Assembly (NCBI GenBank): GCA_021734325.1
Contig: JAIPJF010000002.1
Location: forward strand, 1 to 64,000
DNA from: Fidelibacterota bacterium
GTDB lineage: Bacteria > Fidelibacterota > UBA8477 > JABMPR01
DNA length: 64,000 bases
Direction of reading: 5' to 3'
In this document: piece by piece, positions 6,257 to 36,378 of the stretch
How the letters are laid out: each line of letters opens with the position of its first letter
How positions within the stretch are numbered: the first letter of the stretch is position 1
The notes under the pieces: model-generated
Told to the model about the DNA's origin: nothing
Seen by the model: the letters and a program-made list of their open reading frames with translations, nothing else
Databases searched by the model: none
Made by a program: the position numbers and the translations under genes

Positions 6257-7339
6257 TTAAAGTGAATAGGCTGCCTTCAGTTTCAGGGGATCCTCTGGAT
6301 CGACACCATCTGCAAAAGGTAAATGCCGGTCAACATTGGTGAGCTGGTAAACCATACCCAACCAGTTATTGAATATTGACTTTCCCGTATCGCGCCATGT
6401 GTTGTCCAGCAGACCGGCAATTTCCGTTTCCGGGAAGGGGGGCATTTCCTCCTGCCTGGATTTTGCGGTCTCAATTGACACTTTGTGATCATCAATAATC
6501 GCTTCTACCGCCGTGTTGAAATAATTTTCAGGGCTCTCAGGAAAATTCTCACGTTCACCCATAAAATATCGAGTGACCTCCCGCTTGTATTCTTTTAACA
6601 GACTAAGACGATCATATTCTGGATGGCCTTGAAGAAATACAATCCGGAACATGTCTGGACTGACGGCCATATGAACGCCACTTTCTTCTCCCTCAACCAA
6701 AATCTTGAATCCAGCCGCCTTTAGTTGTTCCGGGCTTACATCATTGTTCCGGGAATGGGGGACATCAAAACGGGTGTTGATGTCTCTGAGCAGGGGGTGG
6801 ATAGGGTTGCTTATTCGATGACTGTATACGCCCCATCTTTTTCTTTCCAATGGTTGTCGTTCAATATTGTGTAAATGCTTGACGATTGCATGGACTGCCA
6901 GACAGGAACACAGGACCGAGGTTGTATCTTTTGTTGCCCAATCCACTATCGTTCTCAGAGGTTCCCAGAAAGGCTCTTGATCCAGGCTTGCGTTGGCCGG
7001 GTTCGTCCCGGTAATGATTAAGGCATCCAATCCTGATCGCTTCAGGTCCTCAAAGGTGGTATAATAAGTATCAATATACTTCTGAATCTCGTCACTCCGC
7101 TTGACCTCAGGAATAGTGAAGGGGTAGATATAATATTGAACAATCTGATTCGAACTCCCAACGAGACGCAGGAACTGTTTCTCAGTAGCCGTAAATGCCG
7201 CATCAGGCATTAGATTTAAAAAACCAATATGGAGTTCCCGAATATCCTGATGAAGGGCAGAGCCAAGATTTAAGACTTCCTGACCCTGAGCGATTAGATA
7301 ATCATAAGTTGGAAGTGCTTGATGGGCTACGAGTGGCAT
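6257..7339 (-). CDS. metA: Homoserine O-acyltransferase (MetA family)
   Basis: A 360-residue MetA/HTS-family enzyme that activates homoserine for methionine synthesis. Visible are 'LNLMP' near residue 42, the nucleophile Cys146 in 'CSCLAVHA', 'HSRNND' and the catalytic 'QGHPEYD'. The start has a strong site (GAGGTGAT, about nine bases upstream). By eye alignment of 'ITGTNPANASLDQEPFW' to characterised MetA proteins, the residue that separates succinyl- (Gly) from acetyl-CoA (Glu) users is Ala here, so the acyl donor cannot be read off; pairing with MetY favours acetyl. Divergent from the arg operon across a 334-bp spacer. Confidence 0.9.
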   Translation of the reverse strand: MPLVAHQALPTYDYLIAQGQEVLNLGSALHQDIRELHIGFLNLMPDAAFTATEKQFLRLVGSSNQIVQYYIYPFTIPEVKRSDEIQKYIDTYYTTFEDLKRSGLDALIITGTNPANASLDQEPFWEPLRTIVDWATKDTTSVLCSCLAVHAIVKHLHNIERQPLERKRWGVYSHRISNPIHPLLRDINTRFDVPHSRNNDVSPEQLKAAGFKILVEGEESGVHMAVSPDMFRIVFLQGHPEYDRLSLLKEYKREVTRYFMGERENFPESPENYFNTAVEAIIDDHKVSIETAKSRQEEMPPFPETEIAGLLDNTWRDTGKSIFNNWLGMVYQLTNVDRHLPFADGVDPEDPLKLKAAYSL

Positions 7340-7673
7340 GGGAGTTCGATCACCTCATTTTTTGTAACAATTCATTACCATTATGCTCACTGTTAAACAT
7401 AAGACCAACTCATATCACAATGAAACAAGATAATGTCGCCATGTGGGCTTTTGCTGCCAGGTGTAGTTTTGGATTAAAATTTTATGAGAACTTGGGCCTC
7501 GCAAGTATATAGAGAACGCTGATTTGGTGCAGGATTAGTGTAATGAATCGTTTTATACAAAGGCAGCTGAGCAAAAGAAACGAGTTTTGTTTCAGTCGAA
7601 TAAAAATAAATAAATAACTGTTGCACCTGGTTCTAGAAGAGGCTTATAATTACTTCAAGAATAAAAGAGACAT
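7340..7673. other. Divergent intergenic region metA / arg leader
   Basis: This 334-bp spacer holds the minus-strand metA leader and the plus-strand arg promoter. I looked for a SAM riboswitch on the minus strand before metA and saw no recognisable SAM-I or SAM-II core. Several tiny open frames exist in the metA leader but none is enriched in Met codons. Only the arg promoter is assigned here. Confidence 0.5.
7621..7650 (+). promoter_or_regulatory. Promoter of the arg-pro operon (sigma70-type)
   Basis: TTGCAC (7621-7626), an 18-base spacer and a perfect TATAAT (7645-7650). Transcription would start near 7657, about 17 bases before the leader-peptide ATG, which is the geometry expected for an attenuated operon. 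Confidence 0.6.
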
Positions 7674-7742
7674 ATGAACGCACCGATTAGAAATATTATC
7701 CGCCGTCGTCACCAGAAGATATCATGGGTGCCTGGCGCATAA
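7674..7742 (+). CDS. Arginine leader peptide of the argGH-proBA operon
   Basis: A 22-codon frame beginning MNAPIRNIIRRRHQK and ending VPGA, with Arg at positions 6, 10, 11 and 12 (CGC CGT CGT at 7701-7709) and a TAA at 7740-7742. It sits between a sigma70-like promoter and a strong terminator, ahead of argG, exactly as leader peptides sit before his and ilv operons. A modest AAGAGA precedes the ATG. If charged tRNA-Arg is scarce the ribosome should stall at the Arg run. The peptide itself is probably not functional. It was found by reading the leader; expression is unproven. Confidence 0.7.
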   Translation: MNAPIRNIIRRRHQKISWVPGA

Positions 7743-7781
7743 TTATTTCGACAAAAAGAATTAAAAAAGCCCCGGTACCCA
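7725..7781 (+). promoter_or_regulatory. Candidate antiterminator of the arg attenuator
   Basis: TGGGTGCC (7725-7732) can pair with GGTACCCA (7774-7781): 8 bp with one G-U. The second segment is the 5' arm and loop of the terminator, so the two folds exclude each other. A third fold, CGCC/GGCG plus CACC/GGTG (7701-7737), would sequester the first segment. A ribosome stalled at the Arg codons leaves 7725-7732 free (antitermination); one reaching the stop covers it (termination). Pairings are read by eye. Confidence 0.55.
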
Positions 7782-7794
7782 CCGGGGCTTTTTT
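7763..7794 (+). terminator. Attenuator terminator before argG
   Basis: AAAAAA-GCCCCGGT (7769-7776), loop ACCC, ACCGGGGC (7781-7788), TTTTTT. The 8-bp GC-rich stem with a 6-T tract is a textbook rho-independent terminator, placed 21 bases after the leader-peptide stop and 107 bases before argG. A terminator inside an operon leader implies conditional read-through. Confidence 0.85.
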
Positions 7795-7901
7795 GTTTCA
7801 GGAACAGATTTGATTTTTACCAGGGCATGTTCATGCATCGGAAAAATGAACGGAGACGAAAGTGATGAAACGGCTTAGAATTGAAAAGGAAGCAAGCAAG
7901 G

Positions 7902-9158
7902 ATGAGTAAAAAGAAAGTAGTACTGGCCTATAGTGGGGGATTGGATACCTCGGTAATTTTGAAATGGTTGGTCTTGAAGGGGTACGAAGTGATTTGCTTT
8001 GTGGGGAATGTGGGTCAGACTGAAGATTTTGATGCCATCGAAAAAAAAGCGTACGCAACGGGGGCCAGCAAGGTTTATACGGAGGATTTGAGAAAAGAGT
8101 TCGTTGTGAAATACATATTCCCCGCCCTCCAGGGGAACGCCCTTTATGAAGGCAGATATCTTCTGGGGACCTCTCTCGCGCGCCCCATTTTATCCAAAAC
8201 TCAAATAGAGATAGCGGCCAAGGAAGGGGCTACGATAGTCTCTCACGGCTCAACGGGCAAGGGGAATGATCAGGTCAGGTTCGAATTGGGCTATTATGCT
8301 CTCAACCCTGATATTCAAGTATTTGCTCCCTGGAAAGATCCGGAGTTCATGTCCGAATTCAAGGGTCGCTCAGATATGATTGAGTTCGCACAAAAACATG
8401 GGGTTGAGATCACCGCATCAAAAAAACGGCCCTATAGTGAAGATGAAAACCTGATGCATATCAGCCATGAAGCCGGGATCCTTGAGGATCCGGCCACTCG
8501 TCCAGACGACTCGGTATACAGCATTTCCAAGCTTTTAAAACAGGCCCCTGATGCAGAGACCAAACTGGAGATAAGTTTTGACAACGGTATCCCCGTCCAT
8601 GTCAAGAACCTTGAGGATGGTGTTGAGAAATCTGATCCTCTGGAATTGTTCCTCTATCTGAACAAAGTGGGTGGAGAAAATGCCATCGGACAGTTGGATA
8701 TGGTCGAAAATCGTTATATCGGAATAAAATCTCGTGGGGTCTACGAAACTCCTGGAGGCACTATTCTATGGGAGGCTCATCGTGACCTGGAAGGCATCGC
8801 AATGGATAAAGAGGTGATGCATCTAAGAGACATGCTCATTCCAAAATTTGCTGAACTTATCTATAACGGTTTCTGGTTCTCCCCTGAAATGGATTTCATT
8901 ATGAGTGCTTTCAATAAGAGTCAGGAGGCGATCAGCGGGAAGGTGAGAGTTGCCCTGTACAAGGGGAATGTTGTTACCATTGGACGTGAATCCCAGACCT
9001 CATTGTATGATCAGGATCTTTCCAGTATGGATATCGAGGGAGGCTTTGACGCCATCGATTCTCAGGGATTCATCAAGATCAATGCAATTAGACTTAAGGC
9101 ACACCAAAAGGTGCTGCATAAGAAACGTCCTTTTAACTGGAGGGAGACCAAGGGATGA
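7902..9158 (+). CDS. argG: Argininosuccinate synthase
   Basis: A 418-residue enzyme joining citrulline and aspartate with ATP to argininosuccinate. The PP-loop ATP site 'AYSGGLDTS' (residues 8-16) and '[12 protein letters not shown]' are intact. An in-frame TTG at 7881 would add seven basic residues; I prefer ATG 7902 ([13 protein letters not shown]), which starts like other family members. It is the first structural gene after the arginine attenuator, and its stop overlaps argH (ATGA). No argB, C, D, E, F or J is in this window, so the upper pathway is encoded elsewhere. Confidence 0.95.
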
Positions 9159-10345
9159 CAAAACTTTGGGACAAAGGGATTGGGGTTAATCAGCAGATCG
9201 AATCATTCACGGTTGGAAATGATCATGTGATCGATCAGGAATTGGTCTATTACGATTGCATAGCCTCAAAAGCACATGTGAGCGTTCTTGAACAGGCTGG
9301 TCTTGTGAGCAGTGAAGAATCGGAAGAGCTTAAAACTGAGTTGAATGCAATTATTCAGCTGCATTCAAAGGGCGCTTTCCCGATCACGCGTGAGCAGGAG
9401 GATTGCCATACCGCAATTGAGGAGCATTTGACTAAAAAACTGGGTGATCTGGGGCAGAAGATTCACACCGCCCGTTCACGAAATGATCAAGTACTGACAG
9501 CTTTGAGATTGTACTATCGTGACAAGCTGCAGCAGATCGATACGCTCAGAAATCAATTTATGGAATCGATCGATCATTTTGTGGGGAGCTATGGAGAAAT
9601 TCCCTATCCAGGATACACCCACATGCAAAAGGCGATGCCCTCCTCGTTTGGACTATGGGGAGGAGCCTTTATTGAAAGTATGCGCGATAACGGCATTCTT
9701 CTGGCAGCTGTCTCTGAAATTATCGACCAGTCTCCCCTGGGAACTGCTGCCGGGTATGGCGTACCTCTTGATATCGATCGGAATGTTTCTGCACAGGAGC
9801 TGGACTTTCCCAGGGTACAGGAGAATCCGATTTATGCTCAACAGAGCAGGGGTAAGTTTGAATCGCTACTCATTCATTTGCTCTCACAGATCAGTGCAGA
9901 TCTGAACAAACTCGCCAGTGATCTGATCCTTTTCAATATGACAGAATTTGGATTTATTGATCTGCCAGAGGAATTCTGCACGGGCAGTTCAATCATGCCC
10001 CAAAAGAAAAACCCTGATGTGTTGGAATTAATGCGGGCAAAACACCATGTGATCAAGTCACTGGAATATCAGATCTCCAGTATGACCAGCAATCTGATCT
10101 CCGGTTATAACCGAGATCTTCAACTGACGAAGGAATCTGTCATGAAGGCGCTTGCGATCACGATAGAGTGCTTGGAAATATCGGTGCTGCTGTTTAAGGA
10201 GCTAAAAGTGAATGAGGATCAATGTCGCAAAGCGATGAGCAAGGAACTCTTTGCTACTGCAGAAGCATACGAATTGGTCAAGCAGGGTGTCCCCTTCAGG
10301 GAGGCATATCAGCAGGTGGCAAAAGGTTTTACAAAGGGCTCATGA
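9155..10345 (+). CDS. argH: Argininosuccinate lyase
   Basis: A 396-residue fumarase/aspartase-superfamily enzyme that splits argininosuccinate into arginine and fumarate. The signature '[11 protein letters not shown]' sits near residues 275-286 with the catalytic Ser in its flexible loop, and 'TARSRNDQV' near residue 107 binds substrate. It is shorter than the E. coli enzyme (about 457) because the C-terminal part is trimmed, as in several Bacteroidetes-type members. It overlaps argG upstream and proB downstream by four bases each, so the three are probably translationally coupled. Confidence 0.93.
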
Positions 10346-11460
10346 AACGTACACTTCCCATATTAAATCGAGTGGTAGTCAAAATTGGAAGTTCCAGTTT
10401 ATGCGGATCTGACCATAAAATCCAGGCAGAACAGATTCATGAACTCACCAGTCAGGTCGCCGCCCTTACCAAACAAAACATTGAGGTCGTTCTCGTTACC
10501 AGTGGCGCAATTGCAGCCGGTATTGGCTACCTCAAGGAAAATAATGCTTCATTGGAGAATCATCAGGCGGCCGCAGCCATCGGACAGCCAATCCTTATGC
10601 GCTATTTTCAGGAGCATTTTCAGACCTATGGACACCATACGGCTCAACTGCTGTTGACCCATGATGATTTTCAGGCTCGCCGAAGATATCTCAGTGCCCG
10701 CAACACGATAAATTATCTGCTTTCCAATCAGATCATTCCGATCATCAATGAAAATGACAGTGTCTCGACTGAGGAAATTCGCTTTAGTGATAACGATTAT
10801 CTTGGTGCGCTCTGCACAAATCTAGTTTCTGCCGATCTGTTTATCATTCTGTCGAATATTGATGGCATTGCAGATAAAAATCCGCTGGAATATCCGGATG
10901 CCCGGATATTCAATCAGCTTACCCTCCCTGAATTGGAAAGGCTAAAGGATCAATTCAGCAACACTGAGGTGAACGGAATGGGTCGCGGAGGGATAACAAC
11001 AAAACTGGAAGCTCCCTTTATGGCCGCCCGATATGGAATTCCCAGCATTATTGCAAATAGCCGGATGGAAAATATTCTTCCTCGCCTCATTGGAGGAGAG
11101 ATCCTTGGCACCTATGTTGAACCCGAGCCAAGTCAACTCAATTCCTGGAAAGCCTATATTGCCCATGCCTTACGACCAAAGGCTGTCATCACCATCGATG
11201 CAGGAGCCGCGAATGCATTAAAGCAGAACAAGGCGAGTTTGCTGGCCTCTGGAATTATTTCAATTGAAGGCAACTTCAGTCGTGGTGATGGCGTGCGCTG
11301 CTGTCTTAGCGATGGCACCGAAGTGCTTCGTGGAATTGTGGAGTATAATCGGGAAGAGATTTCAAAGATCGCAGGGCTTCGTTCAGATGAGATTGAAAAT
11401 ATTCTTGGATACAGGCACCGTAGAGGGGTCATCCATCGTGAAAACATGGTCATAGTATAG
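10342..11460 (+). CDS. proB: Glutamate 5-kinase
   Basis: A 372-residue enzyme that phosphorylates glutamate as the first step of proline synthesis. The N-terminal amino-acid-kinase domain begins 'VVVKIGSSSLC' and includes 'VTSGAIAAG' and 'NENDSV'; the C-terminal about 80 residues form a PUA-type domain, as in the E. coli enzyme. I use ATG 10342, which overlaps the argH stop as ATGA. The frame is open further upstream only inside argH. Placement in an arginine-attenuated transcript ties proline synthesis to arginine supply. Confidence 0.94.
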   Translation: MKRTLPILNRVVVKIGSSSLCGSDHKIQAEQIHELTSQVAALTKQNIEVVLVTSGAIAAGIGYLKENNASLENHQAAAAIGQPILMRYFQEHFQTYGHHTAQLLLTHDDFQARRRYLSARNTINYLLSNQIIPIINENDSVSTEEIRFSDNDYLGALCTNLVSADLFIILSNIDGIADKNPLEYPDARIFNQLTLPELERLKDQFSNTEVNGMGRGGITTKLEAPFMAARYGIPSIIANSRMENILPRLIGGEILGTYVEPEPSQLNSWKAYIAHALRPKAVITIDAGAANALKQNKASLLASGIISIEGNFSRGDGVRCCLSDGTEVLRGIVEYNREEISKIAGLRSDEIENILGYRHRRGVIHRENMVIV

Positions 11461-11470
11461 GAAATATGAG

Positions 11471-12712
11471 ATGAATCTTCAGGAATTGGGAAAACGGACA
11501 AAACAGGCCAGCAAGGTGTTGCCAACGATAAGCTCTGAGATAAAACAGAGCATTCTCAAAGATATGGCGAAAAGGATATTGTCGGTCGCTGGATCAATAA
11601 AACAGGAAAACGAAAAAGACCTTGAAGGCGCCAGAGCGAAGGGCCTGTCCCCTGCGATGATCGATCGCCTGACCCTTAATGATACCCGTATTCAGGGAAT
11701 GGCCGACAGTCTAACAGAAATAGCCGCCATGGAAGATCCAGTGGGTATCATCACTGAGGAGTATAGGCGACCCAATGGGCTTCTGGTACAGCGCCGGCGG
11801 ATTCCCTTGGGGGTTATCGGAGTTATTTATGAATCCCGTCCCAATGTGACTGTCGAGGCGGCGTCATTATGCTTCTATGCAGGGAATGGATTATTCCTCC
11901 GCGGTGGTTCTGAAGCCTTTCACTCAAACCAGCTATTAGTCAAGATCCTGAAATCAGCGTTGGCAGAACACGGCTTGGAAGATGTGATCAATATTGCTCC
12001 TACCACTGACAGATCAAGCATTGATGAGCTTGCCAGGATGAATGATGTTCTGGATGTGATCATCCCCAGAGGTGGGGAGGGCTTGATCCGTAGAATCTAT
12101 GAGATAGCCACTGTGCCGGTGATTGCCCATTACAAAGGCAATTGTCACATGTTCGTTGACGCCTCGGCGAATGTGGGGAAAGCTGTTCCGATCGCCATGA
12201 ATGCCAAGGCTCAAAGACCTGGCGTTTGCAATGCGCTTGAGACACTTCTGGTGCACCAAAACATTGCCAGTGATTTCCTACCGGCATTTCTGGTCGAGGC
12301 ACAAGCGCAGGGTTTAGAAATCAGAGGCTGCGAAAAAACACAATCATTTTCTCCAAAAGTCATTCCTGCAACTGTGGAAGACTATGATACTGAGTTCCTT
12401 GATATGATCCTGGCAGTAAGGGTGGTAAAGGATCTACCTGAGGCAATTGAACATATCCAGATATACACCAGTGATCATACTGAAGCCATTATCAGTGAAG
12501 ATGCCCAAAATATTGAGACATTCACCAGAGCATTGGATAGTTCGGCAATAGTTATTAACGCTTCCACGCGGTTTAATGATGGTGGACAGCTTGGGCTGGG
12601 TGCTGAAATCGGTATCAGTACGACAAAACTGCATTCCTTTGGACCCATGGGGTTACGGGAACTAACCACAACAAAATTTGTGGTAACCGGTGACGGTCAA
12701 TTAAGAAATTAA
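11471..12712 (+). CDS. proA: Glutamate-5-semialdehyde dehydrogenase
   Basis: A 413-residue NADPH-dependent enzyme reducing glutamyl-5-phosphate to the semialdehyde, partner of ProB. The catalytic Cys253 lies in 'QRPGVCNALETLLVH', and 'VIYESRPNVTVEAA' and 'RGGSEA' are typical of the family; length is normal. It follows proB by ten bases. ProC, the last enzyme of the route, is at 35.2-36.0 kb on the other strand. Confidence 0.95.
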   Translation: MNLQELGKRTKQASKVLPTISSEIKQSILKDMAKRILSVAGSIKQENEKDLEGARAKGLSPAMIDRLTLNDTRIQGMADSLTEIAAMEDPVGIITEEYRRPNGLLVQRRRIPLGVIGVIYESRPNVTVEAASLCFYAGNGLFLRGGSEAFHSNQLLVKILKSALAEHGLEDVINIAPTTDRSSIDELARMNDVLDVIIPRGGEGLIRRIYEIATVPVIAHYKGNCHMFVDASANVGKAVPIAMNAKAQRPGVCNALETLLVHQNIASDFLPAFLVEAQAQGLEIRGCEKTQSFSPKVIPATVEDYDTEFLDMILAVRVVKDLPEAIEHIQIYTSDHTEAIISEDAQNIETFTRALDSSAIVINASTRFNDGGQLGLGAEIGISTTKLHSFGPMGLRELTTTKFVVTGDGQLRN

Positions 12713-17662: not shown

Positions 17663-17839
17663 ATGAGTAGTAAGAGCCAATATATCACCTCTCAGAACAG
17701 CACCGGACACGGTCATGCACAAGCCATTGTCTTGCGTTCTGAGATAGACTCAACCCTTACTACACAGATTCTAAGTATTAGTGTCCTCAGTATTTTGGTC
17801 CTAGTACTTATTATTACCAACGCCGCTCTGATCGCCTGA
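17663..17839 (+). CDS. Branched-chain leader peptide of the ilv-leu operon
   Basis: A 58-codon frame from ATG 17663, with AGG nine bases upstream. Residues 36-51 (17768-17815) contain 13 Ile, Leu or Val in 16 positions: ILSISVLSILVLVLII. This is the composition of enterobacterial ilv leader peptides. It ends at TGA inside the first arm of a set of alternative hairpins, ahead of ilvD. A 9-bp hairpin (AAGTATTAG 17773-17781 / CTAGTACTT 17801-17809) lies within the Ile/Leu/Val codons and could be a pause site. A small membrane peptide would look similar, but position and RNA context favour a regulatory leader. An upstream in-frame GTG (17627) is less likely. Confidence 0.65.
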   Translation: MSSKSQYITSQNSTGHGHAQAIVLRSEIDSTLTTQILSISVLSILVLVLIITNAALIA

Positions 17840-17946
17840 TAGAATTTACTACATCAGGATTGAGCAGAGAGGCGGCTTACCCCCGACCTAGATAGCTTAT
17901 ACCTGATGGAGAATTCTTCCCGGGCTTCAGTGCAGAAAAACTGAAG
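17822..17946 (+). promoter_or_regulatory. Mutually exclusive RNA hairpins between the ilv leader and ilvD
   Basis: Fold 1: GCCGCTCTG (17822-17830) with CAGA (17865-17868) and GCGGC (17872-17876), enclosing CCTGAT (17835-17840) / ATCAGG (17853-17858). Fold 2: CATCAGG (17852-17858) with CCTGATG (17902-17908), which breaks fold 1. Fold 3: CTTCAGT (17925-17931) with ACTGAAG (17940-17946), reaching into the AAGGA ribosome-binding site of ilvD. There is no U-tract, so control may be translational or rho-dependent. Fold 1 starts seven bases after the last Ile codon of the leader run, where a stalled ribosome would disrupt it. Confidence 0.5.
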
Positions 17947-17954
17947 GAACGAGG

Positions 17955-19631
17955 ATGATGAGATCCGACCTTATAAAAGAAGGGTTCGACAAGGCGCCAC
18001 ACAGAAGTCTCTTACGGGCAACTGGTGTTATCCAGAGTGATGCAGATTTCAAAAAACCATTTATCGGTATTGCCAATTCATATATCGACCTGATCCCTGG
18101 TCATGTTCATTTGCAGTCATTTGGTGCAGCTGCCAAAACGGCCGTAAGAGAGGCCGGAGGCGTTCCCTTTGAATTCAACACCATTGGTGTGGATGATGGC
18201 ATTGCCATGGGACATCTGGGAATGCGCTATTCACTTCCCAGTCGTGAACTGATTGCTGATAGTGTTGAAACCGTTGCCGAAGCACATCGTCTGGATGGCC
18301 TCATCTGTATCTCAAGTTGCGATAAGATTGTACCGGGAATGCTAATGGCCGTCTTACGCATGAATATTCCGGCTGTGTTTGTGGCTGGAGGACCGATGCT
18401 GGCTGGCAGGACTAAAAATGGTGACAAGGTAGATCTAATCTCCGTTTTTGAAGGCGTTGGTAAATATCAGGCTGGTGCCATGGATGATGACCAGCTAAAA
18501 GATTTAGAAGAAAATGCCTGTCCAACCTGTGGTTCCTGTTCAGGAATGTTTACAGCAAACTCCATGAATTGCCTCCTGGAAGCGCTTGGCTTGGCATTGC
18601 CAGGGAATGGGAGTATGCCTGCAGTTGATAAGGGCAGATTAGATCTCGTGCGTGAGTGTGCAAAGGCGATCATCAACCTGGTTGAGCGGGATATCAAACC
18701 CCGTGATATCGTTACCAAGGAAAGTATTCTCAATGCCTTTGCATTGGATATGTCCATGGGCGGTAGTACAAATACCGTCCTCCATACCTTGGCTGCAGCC
18801 TCAGAAGCTGAAATTGATTTTGATCTTGATGAGTTGAATGCATTGAGTCGTAGGACCCCATATTTATGTAAAGTTAGTCCCGCGACAGATCGTGTTCACA
18901 TGGAAGATGTCCATCGTGCCGGCGGTATTTCAGCGATCCTCAAGGAATTATCCAAAATTGATGGCCTCCTTGATTTGGATCGCCCGACCATTTCCGGGAA
19001 TACCCTTGGTGAAACAATCATGAAATCAGATAGGCTGGATGGCGAAGTCATCCGATCTGTTGAAGATCCCTATTCTCCTGAAGGAGGTCTGGCCATCCTT
19101 TATGGAAATCTGGCACCACAGGGGTCCATCATTAAGACGGGTGCTGTCGATCCCAAGATGATGGTACACACTGGACCTGCCAGGATCTATGAATCACAGG
19201 ATGAAGCTGTCGCAGGGATCAAAGCATCTGATGTAAAACCTGGCGATGTCGTGGTCATCAGATATGAAGGTCCCAGGGGAGGACCTGGAATGCCCGAAAT
19301 GCTGGCGCCAACCAGTGCCATCATGGGTATGGGCTTAGGTGGGGAGGTTGCCTTGATCACCGACGGCAGATTTTCCGGTGGGACAAGAGGAGCCTGCGTT
19401 GGTCATGTCTCACCTGAAGGTGCTTCTGGCGGGCCCATCGCCTGTCTCGCAGAAGGTGATCTGATCACCATTGATATTCCAAATCGCCAGCTGTCTGTTG
19501 ATCTCACTGATGATGAGATTTCCAGGAGAATGGCTGCCTTGCCACCGTTTGAACCAAAGATAAAAACAGGCTACCTGTCCCGTTACGCCAGGATGGTAAC
19601 CTCAGCAAATACTGGAGCAGTATTAAAATGA
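17955..19631 (+). CDS. ilvD: Dihydroxy-acid dehydratase
   Basis: A 558-residue Fe-S dehydratase producing 2-oxoisovalerate and 2-oxo-3-methylvalerate for Val/Leu/Ile. The cluster-ligand regions '[10 protein letters not shown]' and '[19 protein letters not shown]' are intact, as is '[19 protein letters not shown]' near the C-terminus. Two consecutive ATG codons (17955, 17958) follow AAGGAACGAGG; the second has better spacing. It is the first gene of a ten-gene branched-chain operon controlled by the Ile/Leu/Val-rich leader, and overlaps ilvB by four bases. Confidence 0.95.
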
Positions 19632-36208: not shown

Positions 36209-36283
36209 ATGAAAAATATGAACAGCCATTTGATTATTGACCCGATGAACCAGATTCATCGCCATCATCATTTTATGATCTAG
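36209..36283 (+). CDS. hisL: Histidine leader peptide of the his operon
   Basis: A 24-codon frame starting MKNMNSHLIIDPMNQ and ending IHRHHHFMI, then TAG. Histidines are at positions 7, 17, 19, 20 and 21 (CAT CGC CAT CAT CAT at 36257-36271). It precedes a strong terminator and hisG, which is the classic his attenuator layout. It is poorer in His than the seven-His enterobacterial leader. No ribosome-binding site precedes the ATG, and the proposed promoter would make it nearly leaderless. It is too short for automatic gene finding and is usually missed. Confidence 0.75.
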   Translation: MKNMNSHLIIDPMNQIHRHHHFMI

Positions 36284-36345
36284 CTGTTCTTGTAACAATT
36301 CCTGAGTGGCTAGAATTAAAGTGGCCACCAGAAGGTTTAAAAATT
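36279..36345 (+). promoter_or_regulatory. Alternative hairpins of the his attenuator
   Basis: TCTAGC (36279-36284) pairs with GCTAGA (36309-36314) around the leader stop codon. GTGGC (36306-36310) can instead pair with GCCAC (36324-36328). TGGCC (36322-36326) can pair with GGCCA (36357-36361), with GGTT/AACC (36334-36350) inside it, and this last fold uses the terminator's 5' arm. The folds exclude one another in pairs; which one forms in each state needs calculation. Confidence 0.5.
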
Positions 36346-36346
36346 T

Positions 36347-36378
36347 AACCCTCGGCGGCCAAAGTCCCGGGGGTTTTT
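36347..36378 (+). terminator. Attenuator terminator before hisG
   Basis: AACCCTCGG (36347-36355), an 11-base loop and CCGGGGGTT (36367-36375) form a 9-bp stem with one G-U pair, running into TTTTT (36374-36378) and ATTTAT. It lies 64 bases after the leader stop and 25 before hisG, a conditional-terminator position. Confidence 0.8.

Follow-up and report, generated by a model that had tools for sequence, protein, structure and literature searches.

The argG gene in the analysed stretch of DNA (the window, 64,000 nucleotides of the genome G000) is very probably under ribosome-mediated transcription attenuation as known from trp and his, with the supply of charged tRNA-Arg as the presumed signal. 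A leader, a terminator, an antiterminator that overlaps it and the joint conservation of these elements are read in the sequence. This anatomy, the conservation and a missing match to ArgR support the arginine leader-peptide attenuator that the original prediction had put forward. Speaking against the attenuator are two relatives with Lys-rich leaders (G166, G167), genomes that have neither a leader nor ArgR, a weak 1:2 hairpin and a promoter that failed a consensus scan. Bacterial arginine genes are mostly described as being controlled by repressors of the ArgR/AhrC type. If the reading is true, the attenuator closes a gap among the amino acids known to be sensed through leader peptides and explains how some lineages without ArgR can control arginine synthesis. 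The hosts are uncultured and marine.

Anatomy of the argG leader and its operon

The following features of the window are used below.

6257-7339, - strand: MetA-like gene, the left neighbour, divergent from argG
7621..7650, + strand: promoter-like pair TTGCAC-18-TATAAT, read from the sequence
7674..7742, + strand: leader peptide ORF of 22 codons, MNAPIRNIIRRRHQKISWVPGA, read from the sequence; 13 further genomes have Arg leaders directly before argG
7690..7749, + strand: predicted early hairpin (segment 1:2, ribosome-free state), in which the Arg codon stretch pairs with the leader end
7701..7709, + strand: regulatory Arg codons 10-12 (CGC CGT CGT), predicted stall site
7725..7732, + strand: antiterminator 5' strand UGGGUGCC, inside leader codons 18-20 (folding, duplex test, covariation)
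7762..7795, + strand: intrinsic terminator with a 15-bp stem, an 8-bp GC-rich core and T6 at 7789-7794
7774..7781, + strand: antiterminator 3' strand GGUACCCA (folding, duplex test, covariation)
7902..9158, + strand: argG, argininosuccinate synthase (NCBIfam PRK00509, 539 bits, and TIGR00032, 474 bits, both above cut-off)
9155..10345, + strand: argH, argininosuccinate lyase (TIGR00838, 308 bits, above cut-off)
10342..11460, + strand: proB, glutamate 5-kinase (TIGR01027, 379 bits, above cut-off); the ORF is listed from 10222 and the start at 10342 is our reading
11471..12712, + strand: proA, glutamate-5-semialdehyde dehydrogenase (PRK00197, 561 bits, above cut-off)

The 22-codon frame with an RRR run was found as predicted, starting with the ATG at 7674 and closed by the stop codon at 7740-7742; in MNAPIRNIIRRRHQKISWVPGA the RRR run stands between a nine-residue first part and a ten-residue end. 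The antiterminator pairing is likewise present, with 8 bp including one G-U pair, and four extra pairs engage 7769-7772. Its 3' strand GGUACCCA comprises the end of the terminator 5' arm, the loop and the first base of the 3' arm, so that the two structures overlap. The 8-bp GC terminator with T6 turned out to be the core of a longer stem, whose arms are 7762-7776 and 7781-7795. A terminator scan lists this hairpin on the - strand; the hairpin is flanked by both A and T residues.

The sigma70-like promoter of the original prediction was recovered in part. The pair of TTGCAC (7621-7626) and TATAAT (7645-7650) is present on the + strand with a spacer of 18 nt, and it recurs identically in the same-genus relatives L002 and L003, with TTGCGC-17-TATTAT in L004. 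On the other hand, the -35 element matches the consensus at only three of six positions, and a promoter consensus scan of 7000-8400 gave 0 hits against a shuffle mean of 3.1.

With argG and argH downstream of an Arg leader, the amino acid presumed to be sensed is the product of the operon. An ORF for the glutamate synthase large subunit follows 45 nt beyond proA. Because the MetA-like gene lies on the - strand and argG on the + strand, the terminator is on the transcript of no upstream gene in G000.

In the proposed mechanism, RNA polymerase would transcribe the leader with a ribosome following it. The front edge of a ribosome lies about 13 nt past its A site. When Arg-tRNA is short, the ribosome would wait at codons 10-12 with its front edge short of 7725, leaving 7725-7732 free to pair with 7774-7781; the terminator would then be blocked and argGH-proBA transcribed. 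When arginine is plentiful, the ribosome would reach the stop codon and sit on 7725-7732, the terminator would form and transcription would stop at T6, before argG.

Folding and chance tests

Folding of 7657-7800 and a comparison of the competing structures, as the original prediction had suggested, gave a divided answer: the terminator and the antiterminator beat their shuffled sequences, but the 1:2 hairpin was no better than chance. Folded by itself, the terminator reaches -23.6 kcal/mol, and its shuffles average -8.5 (z -6.1; 0/200 as good). When the RNA is cut before the 3' arm of the terminator is complete (7715-7786), the structure of minimum free energy is the antiterminator at -21.6 kcal/mol (z -3.4; 1/200 shuffles equal), and the antiterminator duplex on the side of UGGGUGCC reaches -18.7 kcal/mol (shuffle P 0.004). 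The 1:2 hairpin is the structure of minimum free energy for both 7657-7800 and 7657-7760, but at z -0.87 against shuffles it is weak.

A short frame with RRR followed by a terminator arose in none of 3000 dinucleotide shuffles of 7651-7901. The same rule, applied to 2126 overlapping tiles on both strands of the window, matched only two tiles, both covering the leader site. The rule is strict and insensitive, since its HHH version misses the window's own his leader. An Rfam scan of the window at gathering scores gave 0 matches, and thus neither a T-box nor another Rfam riboswitch.

The element in related genomes

In total, 245 genomes of the phylum (Ca. Neomarinimicrobiota) were searched, argG was found in 49 of them at E 1e-150 or better, and all 49 upstream regions were sorted. 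Several of the genomes are incomplete, and the independent units in the counts that follow are clades rather than genomes. An Arg leader with a terminator stands directly before argG in 14 of the 49, from six genera and three families (G000, G003, G006, G015; G060, G078, G103, G105, G113, G180; G178; G190; G171; G168). Two further genomes, the AT-rich relatives G166 and G167, have a terminator with a Lys-rich frame. In six genomes, argG lies within a his operon that is headed by a dual leader, combining His and Arg runs (G048, G114, G119, G134, G141, G151); hisG and argG of G114 are on two contigs, and their link is taken from gene order. The gene argR stands directly before argG in 20 genomes, five show none of these arrangements (G023, G025, G028, G032, G191), and in two the upstream region is lost to a contig end (G013, G056).

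Homologous leaders that keep the terminator but lose the Arg-rich frame had been named as evidence that would speak against the prediction. At least two consecutive Arg codons are kept in 14 of the 16 leader-plus-terminator elements directly before argG; the remaining two, G166 and G167, are Lys-rich, and to this extent the objection applies. The terminators of the 15 elements folded have energies between -15.3 and -24.5 kcal/mol. A covariance model built from 13 Arg elements, R1, recovered the element of G060 at 114.8 bits although G060 is outside its training set. At E 0.05, R1 matched in at least 190 of the 245 genomes, many of these matches being weak, and most of the weaker ones, among those examined, read as bare terminators. 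Accordingly, the weak matches used were limited to those before hisG and the known element of G168.

The surroundings of the element vary. A CarB-like ORF (named by eye) lies upstream in G105, and a promoter-like pair does in genus g1. The gene proA follows argGH in L031, L036, G151, G114 and G111, and it does not in the stretches from G105 and G171. Thus leader, terminator and argGH stay together while their surroundings change. Counting against the attenuator, the OTC gene of the same pathway has no Arg leader in the four genomes examined.

Codon conservation and covariation

Two consecutive CGN codons were aligned in 13 elements, in which C and G at positions 1-2 are invariant and the third base is variable. 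Judged by this pattern, in which CG is kept and third bases change, the argG leaders look coding.

Covariation was assessed in 15 elements, namely 13 Arg elements and one Lys-rich element of the phylum and the KSB1 locus L052, with G060 and G166 left out. Each leader end (from 27 nt upstream of the last base of the stop codon to 6 nt downstream of it) was paired with each terminator 5' arm plus loop, giving 225 duplexes. Own pairs of leader and terminator beat swapped pairs by 3.42 kcal/mol (double-centred, -3.42 vs 0.00 ± 0.67), and none of 100,000 permutations reached this value. When each group (seven genera and KSB1) was represented by a single element, in 20 different choices, P had a median of 0.0006 and a maximum of 0.0028. 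The own pair ranked first in its row for six of the 15 elements; those of L010 and L013 ranked 12 and 11.

Individual tests of the antiterminator against shuffled leader ends, in which the search region began 13 nt beyond the end of the chosen Arg run (a choice of ours), were mixed. P was below 0.05 in seven of the 15 elements and between 0.07 and 0.154 in six (the g28 group and G190), and the tests failed in L129 (0.69) and L052 (0.70); the own pair of L129 is first in its row with the wider segment. The predicted structure and the covariation nevertheless both point to an exclusive antiterminator that overlaps a terminator arm, and the two strands co-vary in the way that those of an RNA switch would. 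The pairing starts 13-26 nt past the last Arg codon, and in ten of the 15 elements it ends at or before the stop codon. This geometry would suit a stalled ribosome that leaves the strand free and a terminating ribosome that covers it.

Two other explanations can be weighed against these data. The element could be an ordinary constitutive or partial terminator behind an RRR frame that arose by chance, with argGH regulated by other means. The position of the G105 element behind the CarB-like ORF, which an intergenic terminator could serve, and the terminators kept without an Arg run in G166 and G167 are in keeping with this. The explanation is nevertheless extremely unlikely given the 0/3000 shuffles, the Arg frame kept through third-base change, the co-varying antiterminator and the lack of any upstream gene that runs into the terminator in G000. 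Alternatively, the leader could act as a nascent-chain arrest peptide like SpeFL or the fungal arginine attenuator peptide, with free arginine or ornithine stalling the ribosome near the leader end and thereby setting the terminator. The leader is indeed Arg-rich, control of speF by arginine and ornithine via an Arg-containing leader is described in PMC6386406, and a ribosome stalled near the stop codon would likewise cover 7725-7732. What makes arrest improbable is that the conserved part of the peptide is the consecutive Arg codons, whereas its C-terminal residues vary by genus (WVPGA, QGTGV, EGHR, FRGIL), tracking the antiterminator strand and showing no fixed arrest motif; leaders that join an Arg run to a His run also fit codon reading.

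ArgR in the phylum

The search for ArgR was based on a single model, PF02863. None of the 22 attenuator-type genomes, among them G000, which is 84% complete, had a match (14 among the 149 relatives searched, and eight searched separately), and neither did 18 genomes of the same genus as G000; eight of 14 control genomes did. An ArgR regulon calls for an ArgR encoded in the genome, and G000 gave no match to one. All 23 ArgR-positive genomes among the 149 relatives lie in families f6, f9 and f13. The tRNA-Arg-reading attenuator would take over a role that probably falls to ArgR elsewhere in the phylum, in other families. A missing ArgR has other answers besides the leader, since G023, G025, G028 and G032 have neither a leader arrangement nor a PF02863 match; G191, the fifth genome of that kind by its upstream region, lies outside the ArgR search.

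His leaders and dual His+Arg leaders

The window itself holds a second leader.

36209..36283, + strand: his leader MKNMNSHLIIDPMNQIHRHHHFMI, before hisG (36403); its terminator starts at 36347 (-17.5 kcal/mol)

Leader and terminator (36209-36377) form a candidate classical his attenuator with no Arg run.

In the phylum, hisG upstream regions were examined in 63 of the 64 genomes with hisG, G159 being dropped because it has fragments only. A His-run leader was found in 54 of the 63, which indicates that the phylum uses leaders of this kind; by the rule used, there was none in G002, G023, G029, G030, G034, G040, G083, G086 and G167. Matches of R1 before hisG led to MNMRRRHNHYHRPFTQKGRSGGTL (G141), MNIRRRHNHHHRPFTLKGRSGLAT (G114), MNMRRRHNHHHHPFTLIGRPGRAI (G119) and MNMRRRHNHHHQPFTLKGRSGRAT (G134). 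A second covariance model, built from these four leaders and those of G135 and G216, added the dual leaders MAQRRRMHHHHHCILLSYERTGGAA (G048) and MKYNRRHHHNPRTLRTSRRSVGAI (G151). In G048, G119, G134, G141 and G151, hisG and argG share a strand, with argG 7.0-7.6 kb further downstream, and in G151 argG is followed by argH and then proA.

At least two Arg residues directly before the His run were found in all seven leaders whose his operon carries argG (two of these operons, G111 and G114, are inferred across contigs) and in two of the 47 others (Fisher P 2e-7, kinship ignored). The two exceptions are G074 and G216, the contig of the latter ending inside hisG. The stronger part of the dual-leader evidence is the local contrasts. 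The leader of G141 reads RRRHNHYH and that of G135, of the same genus, QRQHHHHH; no match to argG turned up for G135 in the 9.2 kb examined. G151, whose argG is intact, and G111 read NRRHHH and G063 reads YHRHHH; at the operon place of argG, G063 has a piece of argG broken by seven stops, together with fragments of argH. Its sister G172, also with YHRHHH, has an argG match to residues 1-196 that ends 183 nt before the contig end. The leader of G217 reads NRHHHH, on a short contig beyond whose reach the state of argG lies.

The Arg runs of his leaders thus track argG: within this phylum, what a leader encodes goes with the genes of its operon. A his leader with an Arg run in front of a his operon that includes argGH probably responds to either amino acid. 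From these comparisons, it appears likely that several ArgR-less lineages run arginine synthesis by attenuation and that leaders are rewritten when operons are rearranged, with an Arg run beside the His run where argGH is present and, where there is no intact argG, an eroded Arg run beside a His run that stays. As a side-by-side comparison of leaders, this implies no direction, gain or loss, for the Arg runs. If the reading is true, these leaders form a natural series, their codon content changing with the genes in the operon.

Runs of basic residues can by themselves slow ribosomes. Stalling at RRR might therefore report a general slow-down of translation, caused by polybasic stretches or rare codons, and not arginine. 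This is very unlikely, as in G000 hisG is preceded by a His leader but argG by an Arg leader, and Arg runs of at least two in his leaders go with argG (7/7 with, 2/47 without).

Relation to known systems

The class of mechanism is old; what appears to be new, as far as the open-access literature searched goes, is that arginine would be the amino acid read and that a His+Arg leader mirrors its operon. The original prediction knew of no well-described bacterial case in which arginine is sensed in this way, and this held for the open-access literature: the matches listed included neither an attenuator that reads arginine on a biosynthetic arginine operon of bacteria nor a leader with both His and Arg runs.

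The fungal arginine attenuator peptide is a leader peptide by which arginine controls an arginine biosynthetic gene, but it acts by eukaryotic translational arrest in response to free arginine and without transcription termination. Composite leaders are known from ilvGMEDA (Ile/Val/Leu) and thrL (Thr/Ile), whose amino acids share a pathway. The His+Arg leaders resemble them in that several amino acids are involved; His and Arg, in contrast, have no shared pathway, and the leader mirrors the genes of the operon.

The classical trp, leu and his attenuators (for trp and leu leaders, see PMC1262725) likewise consist of a short ORF with a run of product codons, an antiterminator overlapping the terminator and an intrinsic terminator before the first gene. 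Unlike these, the argG element would read arginine, has its antiterminator strand inside the leader ORF itself and occurs in Ca. Neomarinimicrobiota, where other families have ArgR. Nearest in sensing is orf34/SpeFL of speF in Salmonella (PMC6386406), a leader that is translated, has adjacent Arg codons at positions 12 and 13 and reacts to the supply of arginine. According to the same paper, orf34/SpeFL controls ornithine decarboxylase via Rho, mRNA decay and ornithine, and no Rho-independent terminator was found in the speF leader; the element studied here, in contrast, has argG downstream and an intrinsic terminator. A further parallel is the leader peptide reported for the promoter region of carA in P. 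aeruginosa, with attenuation proposed, as carAB serves both arginine and pyrimidines (PMC4997734). There, however, attenuation is described as the pyrimidine control and arginine acts transcriptionally, with no Arg-codon mechanism in the text examined. Among other sources, the main text of an attenuation survey (PMC2965389) lacks the word arginine and mentions carA once, and the excerpts of PMC1262725 and PMC8632094 cover trp, cys, leu and ilv leaders and a carA motif and cysS leader, respectively.

A possible ornithine route and related loci

The original prediction had proline synthesis depend on arginine. This dependence may be better reversed: since no gene of the genus passes the ArgC cut-off and most members have an enzyme like ornithine aminotransferase, ProB/ProA may feed arginine synthesis. 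A route from glutamate over ProB/ProA, ornithine aminotransferase, OTC and ArgG to ArgH would make sense of the operon. None of the 19 genus genomes reached the cut-off for ArgC (best score 25 bits in G000, and 54.5 in the genus, in G018), and the same model gave 359-403 bits in G032, G141, G151 and G167. OTC is present in G000 (contig C21). The aminotransferase of G000 scores 368 bits against the ornithine aminotransferase model TIGR01885, below its cut-off of 378, 319 bits against a second ornithine aminotransferase model (cut-off 656) and 243 against ArgD. Against this route stand the completeness of G000 (84%), the presence of the aminotransferase in members of the genus that lack argG as well, and the match of just 103 bits to the aminotransferase in G003, a genome with argG.

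Within genus g1, 14 of the 18 same-genus genomes had no argG match, five of them more than 90% complete, and arginine synthesis seems patchy there. Upstream of the OTC gene in four same-genus genomes (L145-L148), a terminator lies behind an hslU-like end (by eye), and there is no Arg-rich frame.

In G167 (L263, 4967-11932), a LysW-type cluster and then hisG come after argGH, and the argG leader, MGIILNQLKRKKNSKKK, is Lys-rich. The cluster holds LysW, two LysX/ArgX-like ORFs and LysY/ArgC-like, LysZ-, LysJ- and LysK-like ORFs, named by eye except for the ArgC-like one. Given this cluster after argGH in G167, the leaders of G166 and G167 were considered as possible lysine sensors.

A possible case outside the phylum is a KSB1-titled contig with a 36-residue leader, including nine Arg, and a terminator before argG (L052:2784-2963); the other two of the three KSB1-titled loci, L048 and L100, have no Arg leader with a terminator.

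At about 17663-17840 of the window, a frame ending in ILVLVLIITNAALIA precedes an ilvD-like ORF at 17955 (by eye). This frame is a candidate Ile/Val/Leu leader, with no obvious T-run terminator. In L197 (G043) and L200 (G052), Ile/Val/Leu-rich frames with terminators precede ilvD-like genes (by eye).
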